Below are positions 467 to 16,348 of a stretch of DNA of 64,000 bases, in pieces. Position 1 is the stretch's first letter. Each line of letters begins with the position of its first letter. Origin of the DNA: Aquisphaera giovannonii (lineage in GTDB: Bacteria; Planctomycetota; Planctomycetia; Isosphaerales; Isosphaeraceae); contig NZ_CP042997.1 of the NCBI RefSeq assembly GCF_008087625.1, positions 5,642,001 through 5,706,000 of the forward strand. The letters run 5' to 3'. The notes below the pieces were generated by a model, which was not told the origin of the DNA, did not search any database, and saw nothing but the letters and a program-made list of their open reading frames with translations. Position numbers and translations under genes: made by a program.

Positions 467-548
467 GCTCGCGGCCGCCGCGCCCGGACGCCGGGCCGCC
501 GGCGGGAATCGACGCCGCTTCAACGCATCGCATCGGGGGGTCGTCGCC

Positions 549-1448
549 ATGGAGCCTGCCGAGGAGTTGATCGGGCGCTGCCGCGTTCCGGCGGGGAAGA
601 AGTTCCGGCTCGAGGACCACGACCCGAGCTGGGCCGGGGATCCCGACGTGCCCAAGGAGGAGCGGAAGGCGTTCGCGAAGGAGTCGCTCTCCGAGGACGT
701 CTCGGCGCTCGCCGAGGCGCAGGACCGGCTCTATGCCTCGGATACGTGGTCCATCCTCATGATCTTCCAGGCGATGGACGCCGCCGGGAAGGACTCCACG
801 ATCAAGCACGTCATGTCGGGCGTGAACCCCCAGGGGTGCCAGGTCTACAGCTTCAAGCACCCCTCGGTGGAGGAGCTCGACCACAACTTCCTCTGGCGGT
901 ACACCAGGGTCCTCCCCGAGCGCGGGCGGATCGGGATCTTCAACCGATCCTACTATGAGGAGGTCCTGATCGTCCGCGTCCACCCGGAGCTGGCCCAGGC
1001 CGAGCGGCTGCCCGAGGCGAAGATCAACGGCAAGTTCTGGGAGTCCCGGTTCGAGGACATCAACAACCTGGAGCGGCACCTCACCCGCAACGGCACCGTC
1101 ATCCTCAAGTTCTTCCTGAACATCGACAAGGAGGAGCAGAGCAAGCGGTTCCTGAAGCGGCTGAACGACCCCCGGAAGCACTGGAAATTCAACCCGGCGG
1201 ACCTGACCGAGCGCGGCTACTGGGACGCGTACATGGACGCCTACGAGCAGTCCATCGCCGCCACGAGCACGAAGTGGGCCCCCTGGTACGTCATCCCGGC
1301 CAATCACAAGTGGGTGGCCCGGGCCCTCGTCGCCCGCATCCTGGTCTCGGCCATCGACGGCCTGAACGTCTCCTACCCGGAGGTCACCCCCGCCCAGCAG
1401 GAGTCCATCGAGGCGGCCCGCAAGCAACTCGAGGCGGAGGGCGAGTGA
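549..1448 (+). CDS. ppk2: PPK2-family polyphosphate:nucleotide phosphotransferase
   Basis: Soluble cytoplasmic enzyme expected to transfer phosphate between polyphosphate and nucleotides, linking phosphate storage to the nucleotide pool. The 299-residue product has the PPK2 P-loop (MDAAGKDS, residues 76-83), a Walker B-like strand and loop (IGIFNRSYYEE, about 128-138) and the basic lid segment RFLKRLNDPRKHW (about 200-212). Length and motif order fit the single-domain class of the family (TIGR03709-like). The frame opens at 465, but residues before 549 are low-complexity and a promoter-like pair ends at 466, so the ATG at 549 is chosen. It stands alone, with no co-directional neighbour in close contact. 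Substrate preference (ADP, GDP or AMP) cannot be read from the sequence. Confidence 0.93.
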   Translation: MEPAEELIGRCRVPAGKKFRLEDHDPSWAGDPDVPKEERKAFAKESLSEDVSALAEAQDRLYASDTWSILMIFQAMDAAGKDSTIKHVMSGVNPQGCQVYSFKHPSVEELDHNFLWRYTRVLPERGRIGIFNRSYYEEVLIVRVHPELAQAERLPEAKINGKFWESRFEDINNLERHLTRNGTVILKFFLNIDKEEQSKRFLKRLNDPRKHWKFNPADLTERGYWDAYMDAYEQSIAATSTKWAPWYVIPANHKWVARALVARILVSAIDGLNVSYPEVTPAQQESIEAARKQLEAEGE

Positions 1449-1756
1449 GAGGGCAACGGGCGCTTGTGGCGTGGCCCTGTCCCCACGATGACCGGGGCGC
1501 ATCCCCGGGTCGCTGGCCGTTTGAATGCCGCGAGCCGGGCCGCCGGGCCGGGTAGCACGGGCAGGGAGCGGCGCCAGCAGCCTGGCGGGTCTGGAGCAGG
1601 GCTCGTGCAGCCGCGGGGGAGGGCGAGTCTTAGCGCCTGATACCCGGTTATCGGGGCGGTCCCTCGACACGCTGGCCTCGGTACGCCGGCCGTACTAGCC
1701 CCCCCATAACCCCTCGACCTCCGAGGTTCGAACTCGAATGGCGATTCAGCACCGAT

Positions 1757-1772
1757 TGGCAATTCATTGCCA
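1757..1772. promoter_or_regulatory. Probable ParD autoregulatory operator (inverted repeat)
   Basis: Perfect inverted repeat TGGCAAT-TC-ATTGCCA, 44 bp before the parD start and inside a locally AT-rich stretch (about 1738-1790) of an otherwise GC-rich sequence. ParD-type antitoxins dimerise through an N-terminal ribbon-helix-helix and repress their own promoter at such palindromes. Assignment to ParD is inference from position. Confidence 0.5.
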
Positions 1773-1816
1773 TTTCTTGTCAATTGGTGTGGAGTCGCCG
1801 TGAGGAGGTCATGCCC

Positions 1817-2080
1817 ATGGAAACCATGAACGTCGCCCTGCCCGAGCCCATGAAGCAGTACGTCCAGGATCGCGTCTCGGAGGGCGGGTATAGCAGCGTG
1901 AGTGAATATATCCGCGAGCTGATTCGGAATGATCAGAGGCGGAATGTGGAGTCTCGCGTCGACGCGTTGCTGCTGAGTGGCCTGGACTCCGGCGAGCCCG
2001 TGACCATCACTCCGGAGTACTGGGAGGAGAAGAAGCGAAGGCTCGTGGAGCGGCTCGGCAAAGGCGGCCGAGATCGATGA
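1817..2080 (+). CDS. parD: ParD-type antitoxin (ribbon-helix-helix)
   Basis: 87-residue type II antitoxin. The N-terminus (METMNVALPEPMKQYVQDRV) is the ribbon-helix-helix DNA-binding unit and is followed by the ParD-typical GGYSSVSEYIRELIRND segment. The C-terminal tail (PEYWEEKKRRLVERL) would cover the toxin. The Shine-Dalgarno AGGAGG at 1803-1808 sits 8 nt before the ATG at 1817 and only 2 nt before an earlier in-frame ATG at 1811, so 1817 is chosen. The stop overlaps the parE start as ATGA (2077-2080), which implies translational coupling. A palindrome at 1757-1772 is the likely autoregulatory site. The toxin partner is frameshifted, so the antitoxin may now be an orphan. Confidence 0.9.
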   Translation: METMNVALPEPMKQYVQDRVSEGGYSSVSEYIRELIRNDQRRNVESRVDALLLSGLDSGEPVTITPEYWEEKKRRLVERLGKGGRDR

Positions 2081-2455
2081 CGCCTTCCTATCGCGTCCTC
2101 CCCCCCCGATCGGGACCTGGACGAGCAGGCTTCATTCCTCGACGAAGAGGGTGGCCTCGATGTGGCCCTGAGGTTCTACGACGCAGCGAGCATGACCTTC
2201 GAGGAGATTGTCCGGGCGCCGAGCATCGGCGAACGGCATGACTCCGCCGATCCACGCCTCGCCGATATCCGGGTCCGGCGGATCGGCGGATTCCCCAGGC
2301 ATCTGGTCTTCCATCGGCCCGCGGGCGAGACGGACGACATCGTCCGGGGCCTGCACGGTGCGCGGGATGTGGGGCGAATCCTCGACCGGCTAGCCGAGGC
2401 GGAGGACCAGGATCGGGCGCACGAACCTCCTCCGGCTCCGGTCGATCCGCGTTAG
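2077..2455 (+). pseudogene. parE: ParE/RelE-type toxin, frameshifted in a C8 tract
   Basis: The reading frame from ATG 2077 gives MTPSYRVLPP and then hits eight Cs at 2100-2107. Removing one C restores a continuous ParE-like protein of about 125 residues: DRDLDEQASFLDEEGG, then FYDAASMTFEEI, then SIGERHDSADPRLADIRVRRI, then FPRHLVFHRP and LHGARDVGRIL, all typical ParE segments in order. As written, the start and the body lie in different frames, so no full toxin is made. The lesion may be a true inactivating mutation, a phase-variable homopolymer, or a base-call error. The start overlaps the parD stop by 4 nt. Confidence 0.85.
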
Positions 2456-2866
2456 GACGTTTTTTCAAAGCGGGAGGACGCCCGCGTCAAACTTTCAATC
2501 ATCGGCCGCGGGCGAGGCTGGCATTGCCTTTTTTCGGCCTTTGGTGAAAATGCCGCGACCTCCACGCAAGGCATCTCCGCGAGTCCGAAGCACGGAGCGA
2601 TCCCACCCACCCGAAGCACGCAGGGAAGGTACGGAATGACCCACCGTTAGCGATGGTATCGAACCGCCCGCGACGGGGCGGGCGGCAGGATCGAGCGGAG
2701 CGGGCCGTCGGCGGAAAAGGAATGACGCCGAGGGCACCGGCGACGAGCCGGTGACGCGCCGCGAGGCGAGGGGACGAGGGGGCGACGCGGGCGGCCGATC
2801 CGACGATTCGGGGCGGCCGGCCGGCGGAGCCGAGCAGGGCAGAGCTAGGCAAGGAGGCGCAGGCCC
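2456..2866. other. Intergenic, no gene recognised
   Basis: 411 bases without a convincing gene. A GC-rich hairpin-like stretch (CCGCCCGC / GCGGGCGG) lies near 2666-2692, without a T-run. Open frames on the minus strand here are antisense artefacts. A Shine-Dalgarno for the next gene is at 2851-2857. Confidence 0.4.
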
Positions 2867-4492
2867 ATGGCACGCTGGTTCGTCGACCGTCAGCCGCAGC
2901 GGGGGATCCCCTCGGTGAGCCTGAGGAGGCTGCTCCCGGAGGCCCGGTTCGTGGGCTGCCCCGACTGGGAGGTCTCCGGCTGCACCGACGACCACCGGCG
3001 GCTCGACCCCGGGCAGGTCTTCGTCGCGATCCGCGACGCCCGCTACGACGGCCAGGCCTTCGTCGGCGAGGCCCTGGACCGGGGCGCCGCGGGCGTGGTC
3101 GTGGAGAGCCATTGCCCCGAGGCGGGGCGGCTCCAGGTGATCGTGGACGACGCCCGGACGGCCCACGCGCGGATCTGCCAGGCGCTCGCCGGCGACCCGT
3201 CGCGGCAGATGGCGACGATCGGCGTGACGGGGACCTTCGGCAAGACGATCGCCGGGCTCTTCGCCCGCTCGATCCTCGAGGCCGCCGGCCGGCGCTGCGG
3301 GCTGATCGGGGCCCTGGAATGGTCGGACGGGCTCGCCAGCCGGCCCCTGGGCGCGGGCTTCGGCCAGCCCGGCCTGGTCGGCCCGGACATGGCCTCCGCC
3401 GGCCGCGGCGGCACGGCCGCCCGGCTGAAGACCCCCGGCAAGGGGCCGTGGCCGGGGGGCGCGGCGGGGCTCGCCGCGATCCTCTCCTACATGGTGGACC
3501 AGGGTTGCGCCGCGGGCATCGTCGAGGCCTCCGCCGGCGCGCTGGAGGCCCGCTGCTTCGAGGGCGTGGAGTTCCAGGCCGCCATCGCCACCGACGTCGG
3601 GCTCCCCCGCGGGATGCCCGAGGAGGTCGCCCTCCGGAACCGCCGGGCCAAGGCGAGGCTGTTCCGGCAGGTCGCCCCGGGGGGCCTGGCCGTCGTCAAC
3701 GCGGACGACCCGCACGCCGAGATCCTCGGCGGCGTGAACCTGGACGCCCGCCGCGTCAGCTACGGCATGGGCCAGCCCACCGCCGCGGACGTCTGGGGCC
3801 GGATCGACCGCATGGACGCCTCGGGCACCCGGTTCCTCCTCCACGGCTTCTCCCGGCCGGTCCCGGTGGAGCTGCGGCTGATCGGCCCCCGCCACGTGGG
3901 CCACGCCCTGGCCGCCGCGGCGCTCGCCCTGGCCATGGACATCGACCGCGACGCGGTCGTCGCCGGCCTGGAGGCGGTCGCCAACGTGGCGGGCCACCTC
4001 GAGTCGATCGACGAGGGGCAGGACTTCGAGGTCCGCGTCGACGCCGCCTCCGCGGCCACGCCCCTGGCCCACGCGCTGGCGGCCCTCCGGGCCGTCTCCG
4101 CCGGGCAGACCCACCTGGTCCTCAGCGGCGAGGGCCACCAGGCGCCCCACGACCGCCGCGCCCTGGCCGAGGCCGCCGAGCGGGGCGCCGATCGCGTCCT
4201 GCTCACCCTGGGCAACCCCAGGACCGAGGCCCCCCAGGAGATCCTCGACGACATGCTCGGCGGGTTCCGCCGGCCGGGCAAGGTCCGCGTCCTGCCGGAC
4301 CGCCGGGCCGCCATCGAGGCCGCCCTCGCCGACGCCCGCCCCGGCGACGCCGTGCTCATCTCCGGCAAGGGGCGCAACGCCTATCAGATCCTCGCCGACC
4401 GGGTCGTCCCGTTCGACGACTTCGCCATCGCCCGCGCGTGGCTCCGCGCCCGCCGGGCTGTCTGCCCCACCGGCGTCCGCCGCCCCGCGTGA
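2867..4492 (+). CDS. MurE-like Mur ligase with eroded catalytic motifs
   Basis: 541-residue protein with the three-domain layout of UDP-MurNAc-tripeptide synthetase: N-terminal substrate domain (DHRRLDPGQVFVAIRD, about 44-60), central ATPase domain, and C-terminal domain ending in ISGKGRNAYQI (compare MurE GKGHETYQ). Key residues are altered. The P-loop reads GVTGTFGKT (about 118-126) where the family has GTNGKT. The block TDVGLPRGMPEE replaces the usual metal/carbamyl-lysine DHLDYH region. DNPR, which reads the diamino acid in mDAP-type MurE, is GNPR here. AKARLF after the lost motif is intact. AAGGAGG at 2851-2857 is 9 nt from the ATG. It is likely a paralogue rather than the cell's main MurE, since no mur/dcw neighbours are present. 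Its activity is unknown. Confidence 0.8.
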   Translation: MARWFVDRQPQRGIPSVSLRRLLPEARFVGCPDWEVSGCTDDHRRLDPGQVFVAIRDARYDGQAFVGEALDRGAAGVVVESHCPEAGRLQVIVDDARTAHARICQALAGDPSRQMATIGVTGTFGKTIAGLFARSILEAAGRRCGLIGALEWSDGLASRPLGAGFGQPGLVGPDMASAGRGGTAARLKTPGKGPWPGGAAGLAAILSYMVDQGCAAGIVEASAGALEARCFEGVEFQAAIATDVGLPRGMPEEVALRNRRAKARLFRQVAPGGLAVVNADDPHAEILGGVNLDARRVSYGMGQPTAADVWGRIDRMDASGTRFLLHGFSRPVPVELRLIGPRHVGHALAAAALALAMDIDRDAVVAGLEAVANVAGHLESIDEGQDFEVRVDAASAATPLAHALAALRAVSAGQTHLVLSGEGHQAPHDRRALAEAAERGADRVLLTLGNPRTEAPQEILDDMLGGFRRPGKVRVLPDRRAAIEAALADARPGDAVLISGKGRNAYQILADRVVPFDDFAIARAWLRARRAVCPTGVRRPA

Positions 4493-4914
4493 GCCGTCGC
4501 CCCAATCGCCGCCGCCGGAGCGAGGACGCGACGGCCGCCCGGGGCGGAATTCACCGGGGCGTCCCATTTGAGCTAAGAGTATCCCTCCCAGGATCTTGTG
4601 CCGCGATCTCCGTCGCCCGGATCGGGGAAAGCGAGGGTCGAGCCCCGGTCTTGCAATGGCCCTCCGCTCCCCGAACGTATAGAATCGGGTGAGACACAGG
4701 ATGAGTGCAACCTGCCGGGCGGGCATCCCCCGCCCATCGCGAAAGCCCCGGCACCCTCCGGGCCGCCTCGAACATTCCGGGCCGGGCACCGAATCCCTAG
4801 TGAACACGGCCCGAGCCCCGCGTGTCCGGTTGGGCACGCCGGGCCGATAGCCCCCCAGGCAGCCCGGGGCCGATGGCCGCGGCGGGCAGGAACAGAGAAC
4901 AAGGACGTTGTGCC
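4493..4914. other. Intergenic, no gene recognised
   Basis: 422 bases between the MurE-like gene and the next small gene. Short open frames exist on both strands but none has a ribosome-binding site plus recognisable protein features. Confidence 0.4.
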
Positions 4915-5241
4915 ATGACCAGGACCCTCCTCGAGCGATTCAGCCCGAATCCGTCCCTCCCCAATCTGGTCCCGAGGACCGAGGGCCGAGCCATGGGATC
5001 GAGATCGCAGATCCGCCACGACCCGGCCGAGCTGGCCGCCTCGCTCCGCATGCTGACCGCACGCGCCCACGAGGCCGTGAAGGCCGCCGAGGCGAGGCGA
5101 TTCATCCTCAACGGCGACGAGGTGGCCGAGCTGAAGGCTGCCATCCGCGGGCTCGAGGACCAGTTCCGCGCCCAGAACATGGGCCACCTGGTGCCCTTCG
5201 TCGTCTCGCTCCGGGAGCGGATCGACGCCAAGCTCCGCTGA
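4915..5241 (+). CDS. Small hypothetical protein, predicted helical
   Basis: 108 residues, not recognised. The C-terminal two-thirds is rich in Ala, Leu, Glu and Arg with a heptad-like character (DPAELAASLRMLTARAHEAV, then EVAELKAAIRGLEDQFRAQN), suggesting an alpha-helical, possibly dimeric cytoplasmic protein with no signal peptide or membrane segment. The ATG at 4915 follows AAGGACG at 4901-4907. A second in-frame ATG at 4993 (MGSRSQIRHDPAE) is the other possible start and would keep the whole helical part. It is convergent with the SDR gene downstream. Confidence 0.65.
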   Translation: MTRTLLERFSPNPSLPNLVPRTEGRAMGSRSQIRHDPAELAASLRMLTARAHEAVKAAEARRFILNGDEVAELKAAIRGLEDQFRAQNMGHLVPFVVSLRERIDAKLR

Positions 5242-5319
5242 GCCCATCGCGCCCGACCGGCCCGCCCCGCCATCCCTCCCCGGCCTGCCCGCCTTGCCGC
5301 GCCCGCCCCGACGGGACCC

Positions 5320-6132
5320 TCACCAGTGCATCACGTAGCCGCCGTCGACATTCACGGTCTGGCCGGTGATGTTCCGGCCCTGGCGGCCGGCGAGGAAGAC
5401 GGCCATCGCGGCGATGTCCTCCGGCTGCTGCCAGCGGTTCAGCGGCACGAGCTGCTTGATCTTGGCCGCGGCCCACTCCTCGTAGGCCTGCCTGGATTCC
5501 TCCGGCTGGCGGCGGTTCCACGCGTCCCACGTCGAGCGGTTCAGCGGGGTCTGCACCATCCCCGGGCAGAGCGCATTGACGCGGACGCCGTGGGCGGCCA
5601 GGTCCTTCGCGGCGCACTGGGTGAAGTTGATGAGCCCGGCCTTGGAGGCGCTGTAGGGGGGATCGGTCTGCGAGCCGATCTGCCCGGCGACGGAGGCGAG
5701 GAAGAGCATCGAGCCGTCCTTGGACTCCACGAGCAGGGGGGCGAAGGCCTGCGCGACGGCCACGGCGCCCACGAGGTTGACGCGGAGGACCCGGTCCCAG
5801 TCCTCCGGCTCGAGGTTCCAGAAGGGGAACCCGAACTTGCCGGAGCCGATGGCGACGGCGAAGACGACGTGCTCGCAGCGGCCGAAGTGGTCGCGGACGG
5901 AATCCGCCGCCCGGCGGACGGCGGCGTGGTCGGTGACGTCGGCCACGATCCCGAGCGCCCGGGCGCCGTCCCCCGTCGCCGGCAACCGCCCCGCGACCTC
6001 GGCCACGCGCGGGTCGCGATCGATGGCGACGAGGCTCGCCCCCTCCGCCGCGAATGCCGCGGCGATCGCCTCGCCGATCCCCCGACCCGCACCGAAGACC
6101 GCCGCCACCTGCCCGGATAGCCCGAGATCCAT
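5320..6132 (-). CDS. SDR-family NAD(P)-dependent oxidoreductase
   Basis: 270-residue classical short-chain dehydrogenase with a Rossmann fold. The nucleotide-binding motif is GAGRGIGEA near the N-terminus; the catalytic Ser lies in MLFLASVAGQIGS and the YxxxK pair in PPYSASKAGLINF. The C-terminal GQTVNVDGGYVMHW is the usual closing strand. The open frame extends upstream to 6231, but the start at 6132 (MDLGLSGQVAAVFGAG) places the Rossmann motif at its normal distance. NNAG-type residues are replaced by VFAVAIGSGKF, so this is a divergent subgroup with unknown substrate. It is divergently transcribed from the ATPase gene (107 bp between starts). Confidence 0.9.
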   Translation of the reverse strand: MDLGLSGQVAAVFGAGRGIGEAIAAAFAAEGASLVAIDRDPRVAEVAGRLPATGDGARALGIVADVTDHAAVRRAADSVRDHFGRCEHVVFAVAIGSGKFGFPFWNLEPEDWDRVLRVNLVGAVAVAQAFAPLLVESKDGSMLFLASVAGQIGSQTDPPYSASKAGLINFTQCAAKDLAAHGVRVNALCPGMVQTPLNRSTWDAWNRRQPEESRQAYEEWAAAKIKQLVPLNRWQQPEDIAAMAVFLAGRQGRNITGQTVNVDGGYVMHW

Positions 6133-6239
6133 CGAGTCCGCTCCCCGGCCCGATCTGAGCCGTTCGCATGCCAGGGCCGCCGGGGTACAATGAGGCCAAG
6201 TCCGCCGGCCGACGACCCTCGCCTGGTCCATCGCGAATC

Positions 6240-7340
6240 ATGATCGAACGGCTGTACGTCCACAACTACCGTTGCTTCGAGAATTTCACCCTCGACCTGA
6301 CGGGCATCCCGTCCTGCCTCGTCATCGGGAAGAACGGCTCGGGGAAGTCCACGCTCCGCGAGGCCCTCGTCGTGCTCCAGAAGGTCGCTAGGGGCTCGAA
6401 CCGCGTCCGCGATGTCGTCGGACCGCCGGATTTCACGCGGGACAGGACGGAAGTGCCGATGCGATTCGAGCTCGAGGTGGCCCTCGATGCGAGGAAGTTC
6501 AGGTACGCCCTCGTACTGGAGGTGCCCCCGAGATCCCGCGAGGCCCGGGTGAAGGAAGAGTCCCTATCCGTCAACGACGTCCCGGTCTTCACGCGAGAGA
6601 CGTCGAACATCACCCTCTCCGATGGCGCAAGCTTCCATACGGACTGGCACGTCGTGGCCCTGCCGATCATCTACGACAAGCAAGGGGAGGACTCAATCGG
6701 CCAGCTCCGTTCGTTCCTCGGCCGGATGATCCTCGTCTCGCCCTTGCCGTCCCGGATGCTCGGGACCTCCGACGCTGAATCTGTCGAGCTGGAGCCCGAC
6801 GCGAGCAACTTCGCGTCGTGCCTGAATGGACTCCTCGCGCGATATCCCGCGGCCTACGGCGCGATGGAGGCCTACCTGCGATCGGCGATCACGGACTTCC
6901 ACTCGTTCGAGAATGTGCTCCGCGCGGAGGGCGGCAGGGGACTGCGGGTCCGATTCGAGGATTCGGACACGGGAAAGGGCGTGTCGATCGACTTCGATCG
7001 GCTCTCGGATGGCGAGAAGGCCTTCTTCCTGAGCGCGCTGGTGGCGGCCGGCAGCAAGTTCGGCGACCCCGTCTTCTGCTTCTGGGACGAGCCCGATAAT
7101 CACCTGTCCCCTTCTGAGGTCGGGCATTTCGTCACCGAATTGCGGCGGCTTGCCAACCGCAACGGGCAGTTGATCGCGACGTCCCACAATCCGATCGCCA
7201 TCCGCAGCTTCTCCGACGAGAACACGCTGGTCTTCCGCCGTCATTCCCACCTCGAACCCACCACCGTGAGGCCCCTGACGGACTTGCCTTACCACGGCGA
7301 CCTCATCGAGGCCCTGGCGCGAGACGAGGTCATCGGATGA
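6240..7340 (+). CDS. AAA/ABC-type ATPase, OLD/RecF-like, partner of a TOPRIM-like protein
   Basis: 366-residue SMC/RecF-like ATPase. It opens with MIERLYVHNYRCFENF, the usual start of AAA_21/OLD-type ATPases. Walker A is GKNGSGKST (residues 30-38), the ABC-signature-like segment LSDGEKAFFLS precedes Walker B FCFWDEPDNHLSP (about 280-292), and the H-loop is ATSHNPI. Such ATPases usually carry, or pair with, a TOPRIM nuclease and act on DNA, often in phage defence. The stop overlaps the next start as ATGA (7337-7340), so the two proteins are probably made together in fixed ratio. Start chosen at ATG 6240; the upstream extension to 6168 is proline-rich and unlike the family. No helicase or methylase gene is adjacent. 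Confidence 0.85.
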   Translation: MIERLYVHNYRCFENFTLDLTGIPSCLVIGKNGSGKSTLREALVVLQKVARGSNRVRDVVGPPDFTRDRTEVPMRFELEVALDARKFRYALVLEVPPRSREARVKEESLSVNDVPVFTRETSNITLSDGASFHTDWHVVALPIIYDKQGEDSIGQLRSFLGRMILVSPLPSRMLGTSDAESVELEPDASNFASCLNGLLARYPAAYGAMEAYLRSAITDFHSFENVLRAEGGRGLRVRFEDSDTGKGVSIDFDRLSDGEKAFFLSALVAAGSKFGDPVFCFWDEPDNHLSPSEVGHFVTELRRLANRNGQLIATSHNPIAIRSFSDENTLVFRRHSHLEPTTVRPLTDLPYHGDLIEALARDEVIG

Positions 7341-7834
7341 GCGTGAATCGCTACAAGGACCACGTTTACGTCATCCCGGAGGATGATGCGGATCGTCAGA
7401 TCGTCAACGGCTTCCGCAACCACGACGCGATCGATCCGCGGGCCATCGATGTGCGAGGCCCGGCCGGGGGATGGTCCAAGGTCCGCAACGCGTTCCTGGA
7501 GGAGTACGTCCCGCTGCTCGGCAGGTCGTCGCATGCCCATGTCGTCATGGTCATCGACTTCGACGAGAAGGACGACGCGCGGAGGAGGCTATTCGACGAG
7601 GCGATCCCGCCCGGCTTGAGGTCGCGAGCCTTCCTCATCGGCTCAGCGAGCAACCCGGAAAGGCTCCGAAGCGACCTCGGCATGACCTTCGAGACGATCG
7701 GCCGGAGGGTCGCCGATGACTGTTCCCGGGATGAGCCTCGGCCCCTCTGGCTCCATGACCTGCTGATCCACATTCGGGCGGAGTTCGAGCGGCTCAAGCA
7801 GGCCGTCCGGCCATTCCTATTCCGAGGCGGCTGA
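7337..7834 (+). CDS. Putative TOPRIM-like protein coupled to the upstream ATPase
   Basis: 165 residues, not matched to a named family with certainty. The layout resembles a small TOPRIM domain. A first strand is followed by Glu (YVIPEDDADRQI, Glu15), a later strand ends in an acidic DxD pair (VVMVIDFDEKDD, Asp74 and Asp76), and the conserved-looking FLIGSASNPERLR follows. In OLD-family nucleases this E...DxD arrangement binds the metal ions that cut DNA. The gene starts inside the stop codon of the ATPase gene, so the pair looks like an OLD nuclease split into two polypeptides. A DUF4276/DUF3226-like TOPRIM relative is an alternative reading. The family call is inference from motif spacing; the operon link is seen directly. 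Confidence 0.7.
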   Translation: MSVNRYKDHVYVIPEDDADRQIVNGFRNHDAIDPRAIDVRGPAGGWSKVRNAFLEEYVPLLGRSSHAHVVMVIDFDEKDDARRRLFDEAIPPGLRSRAFLIGSASNPERLRSDLGMTFETIGRRVADDCSRDEPRPLWLHDLLIHIRAEFERLKQAVRPFLFRGG

Positions 7835-8002
7835 CCACGAGGCCCGCCCCCGGGGCATGCATGCCGTCGCCGCAATCCGACCGACCGGGCGCGAGATGGC
7901 CGCGCCGGCCGAGAGACTGGCGATCCTCGCGGCGAATGTCGATATTACCAGTGATCGCGGTCCGGGTGGGATTCCGGGTCGGCGTCGCGGGGAACTGGAC
8001 GC

Positions 8003-9028
8003 ATGGGTGAGTCGGGATCGAAGGTGCGGAAGGATCGCCGGTTCCGTCCCGGCGTCGCGGGCGGGCAGGGGCTGGAGCCCCGCGTGCTGCTCACCGCGGC
8101 GGGGGCCGCCGCGGCGCGGAGGCAGGCGCTGGTGCAGGCGCGGGCGACCGCCCGGTTGACGCCCACGGCGAAGATCGCGGCGGAGTTCAACTCGTTCCTG
8201 AAGGACTTCGCGGCCGTCCAGGCGGCGTACGTGCGGTCGATCAACGAGCAATCCAGCTCGACGGTGACCGTCTCCGCCAACCTGACGCAGCCCTACTCGT
8301 CCGGCTCCAGCACGATGACCGTGGACGACGCCACGGTCTTCGGGCCCCAGGGCACCTTCTCGACGCCGGTCGTCGCGACGGCGAGCATCAACGGGGTCTC
8401 CACCGGGAACCAGTACACGATCACCGGCGTCTCCGGGTCCAACACCCTGATCCTCGACGTGACCAACTCCACCCAGGCGTCGCTGCCGGCCGGCGCCACG
8501 CTGAGCGCCGGCGTCCAGTCCACCACCGCCGAGAGCGCGGGGGCCATCTTCCCCAGCTTCATCATCAACCGCACCAACCTGATGGCCACGAACCTGGTCC
8601 AGTACTTCAACAACCTGCCCGGTAAGCTCCCCTACTTCAACGCGCCGCCGCATACGCCGAACAACCGCGGGGCCATCCAGTCCTTCGTCTACAGCAGCGT
8701 GACCGGATTCACGACGAACGGCCTGACCCAGCCGACCGGGAATTACGCCGCCAGCCTCCAGGGATCGCTGCTGTCGATCGCGCTGCCCACGACCGCCGGC
8801 GCGGACCTGACCATCTACAAGGCGGCCGTCGCGAGCGCCGTGCAGCAGTCCTATCAGCAGATGCTCAACGGCGTGAAGCAGGTCTACGCGGGCCGCCTGA
8901 AGATCAACATCCCCGCGTCGAACAACCGGTTCGGGGCCGACGCGAGCGGCAGCGTGCCCAGCGATTACCTCGGCTCGGGCGGGTCGGGTGGCTCGGGCGG
9001 GACGGGGAGCGGCGGCACGACGGGCTGA
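8003..9028 (+). CDS. LEPR-motif surface or secreted protein
   Basis: 341 residues. The N-terminus (RFRPGVAGGQGLEPRVLLTA) carries the LEPR-XLL signature found near the start of many planctomycete exported proteins. It is followed by an Ala/Arg-rich helical stretch, a Ser/Thr/Val-rich beta region (about 90-180) that looks like an adhesin-type fold, another helical part, and a low-complexity Gly/Ser tail (GSGGSGGTGSGGTTG). Residues 29-165 read like an inserted beta domain inside a helical scaffold. No enzymatic motif is visible. Export and surface display are inferred from the LEPR signature. It is convergent with the kinase gene, 28 bp apart. Confidence 0.75.
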   Translation: MGESGSKVRKDRRFRPGVAGGQGLEPRVLLTAAGAAAARRQALVQARATARLTPTAKIAAEFNSFLKDFAAVQAAYVRSINEQSSSTVTVSANLTQPYSSGSSTMTVDDATVFGPQGTFSTPVVATASINGVSTGNQYTITGVSGSNTLILDVTNSTQASLPAGATLSAGVQSTTAESAGAIFPSFIINRTNLMATNLVQYFNNLPGKLPYFNAPPHTPNNRGAIQSFVYSSVTGFTTNGLTQPTGNYAASLQGSLLSIALPTTAGADLTIYKAAVASAVQQSYQQMLNGVKQVYAGRLKINIPASNNRFGADASGSVPSDYLGSGGSGGSGGTGSGGTTG

Positions 9029-9056
9029 GCCCGGCGCCGGCGTCGGTCGCCTCGGA

Positions 9057-11666
9057 TCACCTCGGGTCGGGCGGGCGGGATGGGCCCGCGGGCTCCGGCT
9101 CCGCGTGCACCTCGATGCCCCCGTCGCTCGCGGGGAGGAGCCGGATCCGCAGCCGGCTGCCGGGCTCGATCCGGATCTCCGCCTCGACCGCGACCCGGGA
9201 GCCGGCGAGCACGCGCAGGCGATACGCCCCCGGGGCCAGGGCGCGGGACCACGGCCGTTCCGTCTCGCCGGGCGTCGTCCAGGCGAGGAGGCCGTCGTCG
9301 ACCGGCGTGCCGTCCGGCCGGAGGAGCTCGCAGACCGGGCCGGCGGCGACGGCGGCCCGCAGGCTGCCGATCAGCGCCCCGAGGTCCTCCGGGGCGGCGA
9401 AGGTACCCGGCGGATCGAGCCGGGCCAGGGGGGCCTGGAAATCCCGCCTGGCGCGTTCCCGCTCCGAGGGGTTGGTGCCCACGTCCAGGTACACCATGTG
9501 GATCCGGATGCCCAGGTCCCGGAATCTGGACCGCAGGAACGCGCCGACGTCCTGCCCGGCCGACTCCCTGAGGCGGGCGCCCTCGCCGTCGGTGAGGACC
9601 AGCATCTTGCGAGGGCGAGGCGCGTCCGTCAGGTCCGACATCGCGGCCTGCCGCATCGTCTCGAGCAGCGGGGCCTGGGAGGAGGGGCCCTGGCGCTCGA
9701 GCGCGGCGAGGAGCCGGCCGGCCTCCGACGCCCGCCATCGAGCGGGGGGGTAGATGCGGGTGATCGACCGCTCCGGGCCGCCGACGGCGGGATCGCCCGC
9801 GTGCGGGGCGGGCCCGCGCGACCCCTCCCCGAACGTCCAGACGCTGACCAGCGTCCCCTCGGGCACGCCCGCCGCGAGCACCCGGGCGAAGGCCTCCCTG
9901 ACCTGGAGGAGCCGGGAGCCCTGCCGGCCCGTCCTCCTCATGCTCCCGGACCAGTCCAGCACGATCGCCAGCGAGCCGGGGTCGGCCCTCAGCCGATCGA
10001 TGACCTCGGGGGCGACCTGCACCGCGATCTCCACGGGCGTCGCGAGGGGGGACTGGGCCGGCGGAGGCGGGGCCTTCGCGGCGGCGGGCGGATTGGAGGC
10101 GCCGGCCTCGCCGATCGGTCTCGTCGTCCGGGGCCGGTACGACGTCAGGGACATCAGGATGAGGGCCGAGGCGACGACCGCAGCCCCCGCGACGGCGATC
10201 CGCCGGAGTGACGCCCCGACGCCGGGGCCCTCGCGGGCCGACGCCCGCGGGGCGGCCCACGAGAGGTCCTCGCGGCGCGGGCGGTTCCCCTGCTTGAGGG
10301 AGCGGTCCGTCCCCCAGGACCGGCGGCCCGCCCGGGCCCCTTCGCGCTCGTCCTCGATGGCGTCGTCCGGGCGCGCCAGCCACGACCGCAGCGCGTCGGC
10401 GACGTCGCGGGCCGAGGCGTAGCGGTCGGCCGGCTCCTTGCTGAGGCATCGCCGGCAGATCCGATCCAGGGCCGGCGGGACGTCCGGGCGGAGCTCGCCC
10501 GGCGATCGCGCGGGGGCGTCGGAGATGAGGCTCGCCAGCACGTGCGTGAGCGATTCGCCCTCGATCGGCGGCCTGCCGGTCAGGAGCGCGAAGAGGATCC
10601 CGCCCAGGCCGTAGACGTCGGTCCTCGGCGTGATCGGCCCCCGCCTCGGGTCGGCCTGCTCCGGGCTCATGTAGTGCGGCGTGCCGAGGATCCGGTCGGC
10701 CGAGGTGAGGGGGTGGTCCGGGTCGGCCTCGTCGAACACCTTGGCCAGGCCGAAGTCGGTGATGTGCGGCTCCCCGTCCTCGTCGAGCAGCACGTTGGAG
10801 GGCTTCAGGTCGCGGTGCACGACGCCCCGGCCGTGGGCGTGCTCGATGGTCTCGGCGATGCTGGCGACGAGCGTGGCGGCGAGCCGCGGCTCGACCGGGC
10901 CGTCCTCGAGTCGCGTCGCGAGGGTCTTACCCCCGGCGACCAGGTCCATGGCGAGGAAATGGCAGCCGTCGGCCGCCCGGCCGATGCCGTGGACGCCGAC
11001 GATCCGCGGGTGGCGGAGCCGCGCCAGGGCGCGGGCCTCGGCGACGAACCGGCGGACGCGACCCGGCGACGCGAGCGCCTCGCGGTGCATCCGCTTCACG
11101 GCGACGCGGCGGCGGAGGCTCTTCTGGACCGCCTCGAACACCTCGCCCATGCCCCCCTCGCCCAGGCGGGCGCGGAGCTCGTAGTCCGACTCGTGGAGCG
11201 GCGCGTCGGCCTCGGCGACGGCGGCATCCCCCGCCGCGCCGGGCGCGTCCGCGCCCGTCGACGGGCCGGGGCCGGCCGCCTCGGTGCTATCCGACGGGCC
11301 GGGGCCGGCGTCCGAGAAGGGATCGGTCGGGGGGGGCCGCCCGGGGTCGTCGCCGGGCCAGGTGCCCGCCTCGGACCGGGCGAGGATCTCGGCCGCCAGC
11401 GTGGGGAAGCGCGCGGCGAGGGCGGCGGGGTCCGCCGGCTCCCCTCGCTCGCGGAGGGCCAGGGCCTCGGCCCGGACCAGCTCGAGCATCAGGCCGGCGT
11501 CGTCGCCGAGGGAGGGTTCGGCGGCCAGGTAGTCCTCGACCCGGCGCGGGGCGCCGGCCCGCCATCGGCGGCGGAGGTCCCGCGGCAGGGCCTCGAGCCG
11601 ATCCCCGCGGGAGTCCGATCGTCGCTCGTCCGGGGAGTCCGTCCGCGGGTGATCGGGCTCGGCCAT
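9057..11666 (-). CDS. Membrane Ser/Thr protein kinase with extracytoplasmic VWA domain
   Basis: 869 residues. A Hanks-type kinase spans about 162-430: glycine loop LGEGGMGEVF, VAVK lysine, HRDLKPSN, DFG, and APE-equivalent SPE. A basic/Pro-rich linker leads to one membrane helix (about 489-510). The outer part is a von Willebrand A domain (about 565-760) with MIDAS motif DWSGSM (571-576), then a beta-rich tail. All kinase catalytic residues are present. The layout suggests a receptor kinase whose outer VWA domain binds a metal-dependent ligand. GGGGGAG lies 7 nt before the ATG at 11666. The upstream gene encodes a small basic protein on the same strand (61 bp gap), possibly co-transcribed. 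Confidence 0.93.
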   Translation of the reverse strand: MAEPDHPRTDSPDERRSDSRGDRLEALPRDLRRRWRAGAPRRVEDYLAAEPSLGDDAGLMLELVRAEALALRERGEPADPAALAARFPTLAAEILARSEAGTWPGDDPGRPPPTDPFSDAGPGPSDSTEAAGPGPSTGADAPGAAGDAAVAEADAPLHESDYELRARLGEGGMGEVFEAVQKSLRRRVAVKRMHREALASPGRVRRFVAEARALARLRHPRIVGVHGIGRAADGCHFLAMDLVAGGKTLATRLEDGPVEPRLAATLVASIAETIEHAHGRGVVHRDLKPSNVLLDEDGEPHITDFGLAKVFDEADPDHPLTSADRILGTPHYMSPEQADPRRGPITPRTDVYGLGGILFALLTGRPPIEGESLTHVLASLISDAPARSPGELRPDVPPALDRICRRCLSKEPADRYASARDVADALRSWLARPDDAIEDEREGARAGRRSWGTDRSLKQGNRPRREDLSWAAPRASAREGPGVGASLRRIAVAGAAVVASALILMSLTSYRPRTTRPIGEAGASNPPAAAKAPPPPAQSPLATPVEIAVQVAPEVIDRLRADPGSLAIVLDWSGSMRRTGRQGSRLLQVREAFARVLAAGVPEGTLVSVWTFGEGSRGPAPHAGDPAVGGPERSITRIYPPARWRASEAGRLLAALERQGPSSQAPLLETMRQAAMSDLTDAPRPRKMLVLTDGEGARLRESAGQDVGAFLRSRFRDLGIRIHMVYLDVGTNPSERERARRDFQAPLARLDPPGTFAAPEDLGALIGSLRAAVAAGPVCELLRPDGTPVDDGLLAWTTPGETERPWSRALAPGAYRLRVLAGSRVAVEAEIRIEPGSRLRIRLLPASDGGIEVHAEPEPAGPSRPPDPR

Positions 11667-11727
11667 GGTCCGGCTCCCCCGCCGCCGGGCCCGTGCCGGC
11701 GGCGAACCGCCGCGCGGGGCGCGTCGG

Positions 11728-11949
11728 CTACTTGCCCTTCTGCTGCCGCCCGGCCTGCGGCTTGCCGCGGCCGGCCTGCTCGGCGGGCTCGACGTGCGAT
11801 GCGGCGCCGGCGGCCCCCTTGCTGCCCCTCGCCTTGGCCTTGGGCATCCCCTTGACGGGCGGCCCGGCGGAGGCGGGCTCGCCCCCCGCGTCGCCCGCCG
11901 TGCCCTTCGGGATCGCGTCGGTCAACTTGAATTTGCCGAAGCCGGCCAT
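11728..11949 (-). CDS. Small basic Ala/Gly/Lys-rich hypothetical protein
   Basis: 73 residues, starting MAGFGKFKLTDAIPKG and ending in a basic Gln/Lys-rich tail. A strong Shine-Dalgarno AGGAGGG lies 8 nt before the ATG at 11949, which makes a real gene likely despite the low complexity. Composition (Ala, Gly, Pro, Lys, no long hydrophobic run) suggests an unstructured, possibly nucleic-acid-binding cytoplasmic protein. Function not recognised. It sits between the hppA terminator-like hairpin and the kinase gene, on their strand. Confidence 0.6.
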   Translation of the reverse strand: MAGFGKFKLTDAIPKGTAGDAGGEPASAGPPVKGMPKAKARGSKGAAGAASHVEPAEQAGRGKPQAGRQQKGK

Positions 11950-12078
11950 GATCTGACCCTCCTGAATGATACCGGGGTGCTCCCCGAACGGGCGGAGCGC
12001 TCCCCCTGATGGTAGGTGATGCAACCCCTCTGCTCAAGCCCGACGCCGCGTCGCATCCGGGATGGGGGCCAACGAGAA

Positions 12079-12112
12079 CGCCCCCCCGGGCCGGCGAGGG
12101 TCCGGGGGGGCG
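12079..12112 (-). terminator. Hairpin downstream of hppA
   Basis: Perfect 11-bp inverted repeat CGCCCCCCCGG / CCGGGGGGGCG (12079-12089 and 12102-12112, 12-nt loop), 42 bp past the hppA stop. On the minus strand it is followed by a modest T-containing stretch rather than a clear T-run, so it may be a terminator or an mRNA 3' stabiliser. Confidence 0.55.
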
Positions 12113-12154
12113 CGGCGGGCGACGGCGGCTCGCGGCCCGGAGGCCGACGCGGCG

Positions 12155-14806
<2,652 letters not shown>

Positions 14807-15137
14807 GATCACTATCTCCGAACTTCCAAGAGTCGTCCAAACACGGATCGGGATGGGAGATCTCGATCGGTGGCGCGCACGGGGGAGCCGTGTGGCATGG
14901 GCCCGATCGCACGTGCGGGGCCCGCTCCGAAATCCTTCCTGAGTACGTCCCGTCCGTGGGGGGCGGCGGCACCGTCGTGGTGGCTTCGCCGCTCATCGCG
15001 TCGTTCCTCGGCTTCCGACCTCAGCCAAGCTTTTTCCCGATTAGACACCAGGATCCGGGCCCGCGAAAGGGCCTAGGGGGGATTTCTCGGGCCGATTCTC
15101 CGGCCGACGCGGGCGTCGCGTCGGGCCCGGCCGGGCG
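14807..15137. other. Intergenic, upstream of hppA
   Basis: 331 bases between the hppA start and the hairpin after the VWA gene. It must hold the hppA promoter (minus strand), but I see no convincing -35/-10 pair. No coding frame is convincing. Confidence 0.4.
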
Positions 15138-15176
15138 GGGCGCGGCGGGGCCCGCGGGGGCCTCCCCGCCGCGCCC
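15138..15176 (-). terminator. Strong hairpin after the VWA gene
   Basis: Perfect 13-bp inverted repeat GGGCGCGGCGGGG / CCCCGCCGCGCCC (15138-15150 and 15164-15176, 13-nt loop), starting 9 bp past the stop of the VWA gene. It lacks a T-run, so it is either an atypical terminator or a 3' end stabiliser for the envelope operon. Confidence 0.55.
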
Positions 15177-15184
15177 GCGGCGCC

Positions 15185-16348
15185 TCAGAAGCCGCCGGCC
15201 GACTTGGGGAAATTCATCACGTCGATGTACCGATACGTCCCGCCCGTCGTCGTCGCCAGGCGGCGGAGCGGCGTCCCGCCCCCCAGGTCGCTCCCCCGGC
15301 CGAATTCCACCGCCTGGATCCGGACGCCCCCGGCCAGGGGCAGGATCCGGTCCACGTCGGTGTTGGTCATCTGGTCGGCGTCGGTGAGGAAGAAGATGAC
15401 CTCCGGCTTGAGCCCCAGGGCCGTGCGGAGGGCCAGCATGTGGTCGGTCCCGCCGTCGGGGCCGACCGTCCGGAGCTGCGCCTCGACCCGCCCCTTGTTC
15501 CGCGTCGTCGCCGGCATCATCCCCTGCTGGCCCGACGGATCCGCCAGGATCCGCACCTTCAGGTTGTAGAAGACCACGGCGAACCGCGCGTCCGGGGGCA
15601 GCGGGTTCAGGCTGCTCATCAGCTCCCGCTTGGCCACCCCGAGCGAGTCCCTGGCGACCATGCTTCCGGAACAATCGATCACGTAGGCGAATGAGTGCGC
15701 GTTCTCGCGGGCGCCGAAGAACTCGGTCCCCGGGCCGGTGCCCCGCCCGACGCCGCCGCCGGAGCCGCCCCCCGACCCGCCCCCGCCGCCGGTGCCGGGG
15801 CCCGGGGTCAGGCCGATGCCCGTGGTCTGCGGGCCGGGCAGGGCGCGCTCGAGGTCCCGGGGCGCCCTGTCCGGGAGGATCTCGTTGATCAGGGCGTCGG
15901 CCGCGGGGTCCGGGCCGGGCCCGCGGGGGTCGCTGCCGGCGGCCGGGGCGCGGAACTCCACGCTGCCGAGGCCGCCGACCTCGCCCGGCGAGCCTCCGCC
16001 GGTCCCCGGCACGCGGCCCTGGTCGGCCCTCGTGTCCGCCGGCCCGATGTCCCCGCGCAGCGGGGCGGGCCGCTCCGCCTCCCGCGGCATCGCCGCGTGC
16101 AGCACCGTCAGCGACGCCGCCAGCACGATCAGCAGGTGCACCAGCGCCGACGAGCCGAGCGAGCGGGGGTCGGTGAGCGGGGTCTCGCCGAAGCCCGCGC
16201 GCGGCGGCTCGGCCGGGCCCTCCCGGCCGGCGGCCCCGCGCCCGTCGCGGCCCTCATGGGCCCGGCCGCGGGGCGGAGACTCCTCGTCGGACTCGAACGA
16301 GAACCTGATCTGCATCACGGGGTCAGCGCCCCGGGGATGTCGGCTCAT
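15185..16348 (-). CDS. VWA-domain envelope protein of the ExbBD-type cluster
   Basis: 387 residues. A short cytoplasmic N-terminus is followed by one hydrophobic helix (SSALVHLLIVLAASLTVLHA, about 66-85), a long Gly/Pro-rich periplasmic linker, and a C-terminal VWA domain with an intact MIDAS (YVIDCSGSM) and the TDADQ acidic loop. The overall layout recalls TonB/TolA-like bitopic proteins but with a VWA head. It is the last gene of the cluster and overlaps the OB-fold gene by 26 bp. The ATG at 16348 has GGAG 7 nt upstream; a second ATG at 16315 (MQIRFSF) lies just after the upstream stop and is an alternative. It is probably moved or energised by the ExbB/ExbD-like proteins encoded upstream (inference). 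Confidence 0.85.
   Translation of the reverse strand: MSRHPRGADPVMQIRFSFESDEESPPRGRAHEGRDGRGAAGREGPAEPPRAGFGETPLTDPRSLGSSALVHLLIVLAASLTVLHAAMPREAERPAPLRGDIGPADTRADQGRVPGTGGGSPGEVGGLGSVEFRAPAAGSDPRGPGPDPAADALINEILPDRAPRDLERALPGPQTTGIGLTPGPGTGGGGGSGGGSGGGVGRGTGPGTEFFGARENAHSFAYVIDCSGSMVARDSLGVAKRELMSSLNPLPPDARFAVVFYNLKVRILADPSGQQGMMPATTRNKGRVEAQLRTVGPDGGTDHMLALRTALGLKPEVIFFLTDADQMTNTDVDRILPLAGGVRIQAVEFGRGSDLGGGTPLRRLATTTGGTYRYIDVMNFPKSAGGF

Follow-up and report, generated by a model that had tools for sequence, protein, structure and literature searches.

A putative split-OLD-type ATPase/Toprim-like gene pair in the planctomycete genus Aquisphaera

In the PARIS system, AriA and AriB are encoded by adjacent genes (PMC10568477; PMC12796447), and AriA sequesters AriB, a Toprim tRNase (PMC12409363; PMC11455837). 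In NetFlax, AAA-neutralised TOPRIM_OLD toxins have been validated, the pairs being AAA(D29):TOPRIM_OLD(D44, D60), and RloB/AbiLii are related to the OLD Toprim domain (PMC10440598). Not all members of the OLD family are defensive: the archaeal OLD protein Cran1 has a cell-cycle role (PMC12796447). Here we describe two overlapping genes, A and B, from a 10.5-Mb planctomycete genome of the genus Aquisphaera. They are read here as a two-gene ATPase/Toprim module, complete in itself and of the split OLD type, which by analogy with these systems would probably serve in abortive-infection defence.

The pair is located on the forward strand of the window, the whole stretch of 64,000 nucleotides that was analysed. 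Gene A (positions 6240–7340) starts with an ATG at 6240, ends with a stop codon at 7338–7340 and encodes an ABC-type (RecF/SMC/OLD-like, Pfam AAA_21) ATPase of 366 residues. Gene B (7337–7834, same strand) starts with an ATG at 7337, has a stop codon ending at 7834 and encodes a protein of 165 residues with a predicted Toprim fold. As the earlier note had read from the sequence, B starts inside the stop codon of A, the two genes sharing the four nucleotides ATGA at 7337–7340; translation of A and B is likely coupled through this overlap. An overlap of four nucleotides is also present in 22 of the about 30 complete homologous pairs, six others overlapping by 22 nucleotides and one by 11, as measured with mechanically picked start codons.

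Protein A contains a Walker A motif (GKNGxGK, residues 30–37), an LSDGEK signature (residues 255–260), a Walker B motif with D-loop (WDEPD, residues 282–286) and a switch histidine (His316). All are conserved in an alignment of 11 homologues, in which the full ABC motif set is invariant or nearly so; the complete RecF/OLD-type ATP site that had been claimed for this protein is confirmed. Comparison with Pfam gives a match to AAA_21 (E-value 2.9e-20) and also one to AAA_15, while the top PADLOC matches are AbiLi (E-value 2.2e-25), AriA and HEC-01A (E-value 3.5e-21), with many other PADLOC ATPase models matching as well. In the structure search, the predicted model of A (pLDDT 82.8) aligns with ATPases of the Rad50/SMC type and of retron PtuA at Z-scores of 18–20, the Rad50/SMC heads being the nearest fold. 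Judged from these motifs, A is an intact, complete ABC ATPase of the RecF/OLD/Rad50 type.

Protein B has no family match beyond chance in Pfam, PADLOC or NCBIfam (in Pfam and PADLOC up to an E-value of 1), and its homologues have none in Pfam. The AF2 model of B, obtained with 11 sequences (pLDDT 91.7, pTM 0.87), begins with a beta-strand (residues 9–14) and an alpha-helix (17–27), followed by a short strand (37–39), a helix (46–63), a third strand (67–72), a helix (79–89) and a fourth strand (98–101), after which the chain continues with three helices (107–114, 118–130 and 144–161). We take this order of strands and helices to be that of the Toprim fold; a predicted fold lacking this topology, which the earlier note had named as a refuting result, did not emerge. 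Glu15 is located directly after the first strand, and the Asp74-x-Asp76 sequence follows the third. Among 33 homologues, with identities down to 39%, Glu15, Asp16 and Asp74 are present in all and Asp76 in 32, the sole change being D76V in one sequence (L066) whose close relative (L067) retains the aspartate. Arg82, Arg97, Pro107, Gly122, Cys129 and Trp138 are likewise invariant. The acidic pattern of Glu15, Asp74 and Asp76, previously described as Toprim-like from a single sequence, is thus confirmed, at a level of conservation far beyond that expected by chance.

Metal A of Bp OLD, a Class 2 protein, is coordinated by E400 and D455 with D457 in support; E508, E404 and T506 are the residues for metal B, and K562 contributes to catalysis (PMC6755086). 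Mapped by eye, from positions rather than superposed coordinates, Glu15, Asp74 and Asp76 of B correspond to E400, D455 and D457 and are putative metal ligands. Glu108 (28 of 33 homologues) and Arg152 (31 of 33) are candidate accessory residues, which by the same by-eye mapping may be the counterparts of E508 and K562. At the place of E404 no acid is kept, residue 19 being Asp, Asn or His among the 33 homologues, and residue 106 is variable.

When the model of B is compared with known structures using VIA-align, the OLD nuclease of T. scotoductus (6p74) ranks first, with a Z-score of 7.6 and an r.m.s.d. of 4.3 Å over 133 residues at 19% identity, and the list also contains B. pseudomallei OLD (Z-score 6.3) and further Toprim proteins, namely 6nk8 and topoisomerases II/IV. 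However, this first place is held only slightly above unrelated flavodoxin-like folds, including lumazine synthases, at Z-scores of 7.2–7.3. Foldseek gives nothing at an E-value of 0.001 or better, with retron Eco2 and topo I low-scoring in its list; the BFVD search has no match at this threshold either, its list including phage primase/Toprim proteins and an RloB-like protein, and the B profile finds nothing meaningful among PDB sequences. Because the lumazine synthases score so near to OLD and Foldseek gives no match at its threshold, the fold search alone supports a Toprim identity for B but is not decisive. If B were not a nuclease, its flavodoxin-like three-layer fold might use the acidic residues for another purpose, such as regulating A. 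The lumazine synthase-like scores, the variable residue 19 and the lack of a match to known Toprim families in direct profile comparisons would all suit this reading, but the near-invariant Glu after strand 1 and DxD after strand 3, together with a significant profile match to a sister family in which the OLD-type motifs are complete, make it very improbable.

This sister family, B', was found in a genome (G674; L131:1501–3158) where a second, different ATPase gene of 369 residues is followed by an overlapping gene of 186 residues. B' is present in 21 of 386 cyanobacterial species (L131, L134–L150) and contains the motifs ILCED, IDAD and RNIETW, a clear OLD-type set. The profiles of B and B' align in hhalign with a probability of 93.9, an E-value of 1.5e-7 and a score of 51.9, superposing Glu15 on the glutamate of CED and DFD on DAD; the best of 100 column-shuffled B' profiles reaches an E-value of 0.009 and a score of 23.2, and the reversed profile an E-value of 0.28. 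B' in turn is weakly recognised by HEC-01B of PADLOC (E-value 5.6e-6) and, below cut-off, by DUF4276 (E-value 0.0047). Direct hhalign comparisons of B with RloB (E-value 0.08), DUF4276 and the OLD Toprim domain are not significant. By its match to B', and the match of B' to HEC-01B, B thus appears to be tied to the HEC-01/DUF4276-like set through one intermediate step and not directly. The case for B as a Toprim is carried by motif conservation and this sister-family link. With the model topology in agreement, the Toprim identity proposed in the earlier note is supported, and B is best described, from sequence and model, as a stand-alone Toprim-like domain that has a conserved triad of predicted metal ligands and ends in a short helical part.

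A scan of genome contigs with the B profile revealed 14 loci, in planctomycetes, cyanobacteria, Chlorobiaceae and Bryobacteraceae, with fragments in Burkholderiales and Methylococcaceae MAGs. The complete overlapping pairs, about 30 in number, are distributed over Planctomycetota, Cyanobacteria, Chlorobi and Acidobacteriota; partial loci are present in two proteobacterial MAGs. Broader sampling found B in 26 of 386 cyanobacterial species, in 2 of 392 planctomycete species and in 3 of 59 relatives. These rates are lower bounds, as for some genomes the larger searches scored only some of the initial candidates. No relative was found in viral contigs, and phages gave one weak match of 78 residues, in Proteus phage 10 (E-value 2e-3). 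A is located directly upstream of B at every intact locus whose contig extends that far, and the trees of A and B share well-supported clades (the Aquisphaera pair, L009/L013, L018/L063 and L066/L067); the two genes are inherited as a unit. A 546-residue open frame in one genome (G227), considered as an A-B fusion, turned out to be two overlapping genes. In three MAG contigs (L015, L016 and L017) B breaks or diverges around residues 30–40 or 70, possibly reflecting strain variants or contig-end insertions. In a Chlorobiaceae contig, the first 39 codons of A occur a second time as a truncated copy (L010:2083–2199), with a near-duplicate small open reading frame alongside, in surroundings rich in toxin-antitoxin-like genes.

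Broken loci are present in 8 of the 26 cyanobacterial carriers. An intact-looking B stands without an adjacent cognate A in G674 (L068), a truncated A lies beside a retained B in G741 (L077) and G530 (L079), and B is split or truncated in G797, G749, G751, G600 and G515; the decayed copies, with L080–L083 among them, thus include cases of an intact A with a truncated B. Some of these may be assembly errors, and several sit within long contigs. Such frequent decay argues for a dispensable accessory cassette and not a housekeeping operon. In two Aquisphaera species the pair occupies the same place and is under purifying selection, with a dN/dS of about 0.2–0.25. Faster evolution of the pair than of its neighbours was discarded as a signal, two downstream neighbours being equally diverged (67–70% identity), and no empty site could be defined, as SDR orthologues in relatives lack the surrounding synteny. 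The conserved position and purifying selection, the Rad50/SMC-like fold of A, the housekeeping genes around the pair and the precedent of Cran1 would be consistent with a cellular repair or maintenance complex (RecF-RecR-like, SbcCD-like or Cran1-like), in which an ABC ATPase and a Toprim subunit process DNA. Against this, the pair is carried by only 3 of 59 relatives, is decayed in 8 of the 26 cyanobacterial carriers and has no neighbour or operon in common across loci; we regard such a role as improbable.

One pair is carried by the 1.2-Mb plasmid of Kovacikia minuta, where it adjoins transposon-like and possible toxin-antitoxin genes. This copy, the overlap of the A and B genes and the two-gene layout shared with the toxins validated in NetFlax would fit an addiction cassette, in which A neutralises the toxicity of B, a Toprim nuclease, and the pair is maintained selfishly rather than for phage defence. 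However, the majority of copies lie on chromosomes or large contigs, and B is intact without its cognate A in G674 and beside a decayed A in G741; on balance, we consider an addiction cassette unlikely. Judging by the B of G674, the protein on its own may lack strong toxicity, or this copy may be inactive. The same copy is also awkward for the defence reading, in which a lethal toxin would need its antitoxin.

In the window, the neighbours of the pair encode PPK2, a Mur ligase-like protein, an SDR, a Ser/Thr kinase and an H+-PPase, and neither a helicase (GajB UvrD-like) nor a retron reverse transcriptase is present among the genes scanned (546 to 16348), which bears out the earlier observation that no known defence partner accompanies this locus. 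At 1784–2455, two small genes resemble by eye a ribbon-helix-helix antitoxin and a ParE/RelE-like toxin, with no Pfam match at an E-value of 1e-4. At 18 further loci (17 cyanobacterial and one planctomycete) the neighbours are diverse: no Pfam family occurs in more than 4 of the 139 neighbour proteins and no neighbour or operon is shared. Consistent placement of homologous pairs in housekeeping operons, which the earlier note had named as a refuting result, was therefore not observed. Nor is there a clear excess of defence genes near these 18 loci when compared with 15 control stretches of the same genomes: at E-values up to 1e-15, 82 PADLOC families were obtained from the 139 neighbour proteins and 72 from 132 control proteins, counts that refer to families and not genes and are dominated by generic helicase and kinase models. 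This comparison reveals no clear enrichment, rather than proving that there is none. By eye, toxin-antitoxin-like and transposon-like genes surround the Chlorobiaceae and plasmid loci.

With solitary loci and no clear excess of defence genes around them, the defence role that had been proposed is thus not evident from context. Class 1 OLD genes have also been described as solitary (PMC10568477), and a missing defence island is therefore not evidence against defence. The pair may even represent a distinct minimal class of solitary ATPase/Toprim defence systems that avoids defence islands, has its own trigger and substrate and goes unnamed by current finders, a possibility that we put forward tentatively and with some doubt.

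For abortive-infection defence, the reading we prefer, A would bind B and either hold it inactive or activate it on an infection cue, exerting this control through ATP-dependent dimerisation or oligomerisation. Once released or activated, B would cut nucleic acid with Mg2+, its substrate being tRNA or another RNA, as for AriB of PARIS, or DNA, as for OLD, and the cutting would stop growth of the infected cell. We infer substrate, trigger and defence role by analogy; for the defence role, the analogy is with PARIS, AbiL and related pairs, joined by the patchy distribution and frequent decay of the cassette. The number of split ATPase/Toprim systems is growing, and the pair adds to them an unnamed family whose effector escapes Pfam, PADLOC and NCBIfam. 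It also points to solitary chromosomal cassettes as a form that such pairs can take, one that island-based searches would miss; with its 165 residues, B could serve as a compact model of a Toprim effector nuclease.

When the pair is compared with the known systems, the split OLD anatomy proposed earlier is apparent: A carries the complete RecF/SMC/OLD motifs, and the Toprim-like Glu and DxD are encoded by a separate, adjacent gene. In OLD Classes 1–3 (P2 Old, TsOLD, GajA and retron OLD) both domains are also present, and B finds its best structural match in TsOLD, but there they form one fused chain, in contrast to the two separate open reading frames in the window and in every intact homologous locus. 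Gabija, moreover, has the GajB helicase beside its OLD gene, unlike the scanned part of the window. PARIS (Class 4 OLD) also encodes its ABC ATPase and its Toprim protein in neighbouring genes, but B does not match the DUF4435/AriB models, and DUF4435 has no match in the Aquisphaera genome. AbiL (AbiLi/AbiLii), RloB-type pairs and NetFlax are likewise bicistronic ATPase and Toprim systems; B differs from AbiL/RloAB in having no match to RloB (PF13707) by Pfam or profile comparison, and RloB has no match in the same genome. A like layout is found in the HEC-01/DUF4276-type pairs, in which an AAA_21 ATPase of about 370 residues is followed by an overlapping protein of about 200 residues with an EGxTE-type motif. 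B matches neither HEC-01B nor DUF4276 directly, and has a DFD motif and a PEDDA(D/N)RQIA signature of its own. Pairs of the A-B layout with DUF4276 or RloB occur commonly in this bacterial family: at most of the DUF4276 loci checked, and at several RloB loci, the gene lies behind an ATPase of about 370 residues, for DUF4276 usually directly behind one of the AAA_21 type. The genome of the window itself has four DUF4276 matches (C1:1401219, 1990835, 896675 and 10333391). Text searches of PubMed Central for DUF4276 and for the A-B pair found no description. The earlier suggestion of an undescribed variant thus stands for the protein family and not for the architecture, which is known from PARIS, AbiL, NetFlax and HEC-01 of PADLOC. 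Given these systems and the common DUF4276 and RloB pairs, the A-B pair is a new, unnamed family within the known split ATPase/Toprim kind.
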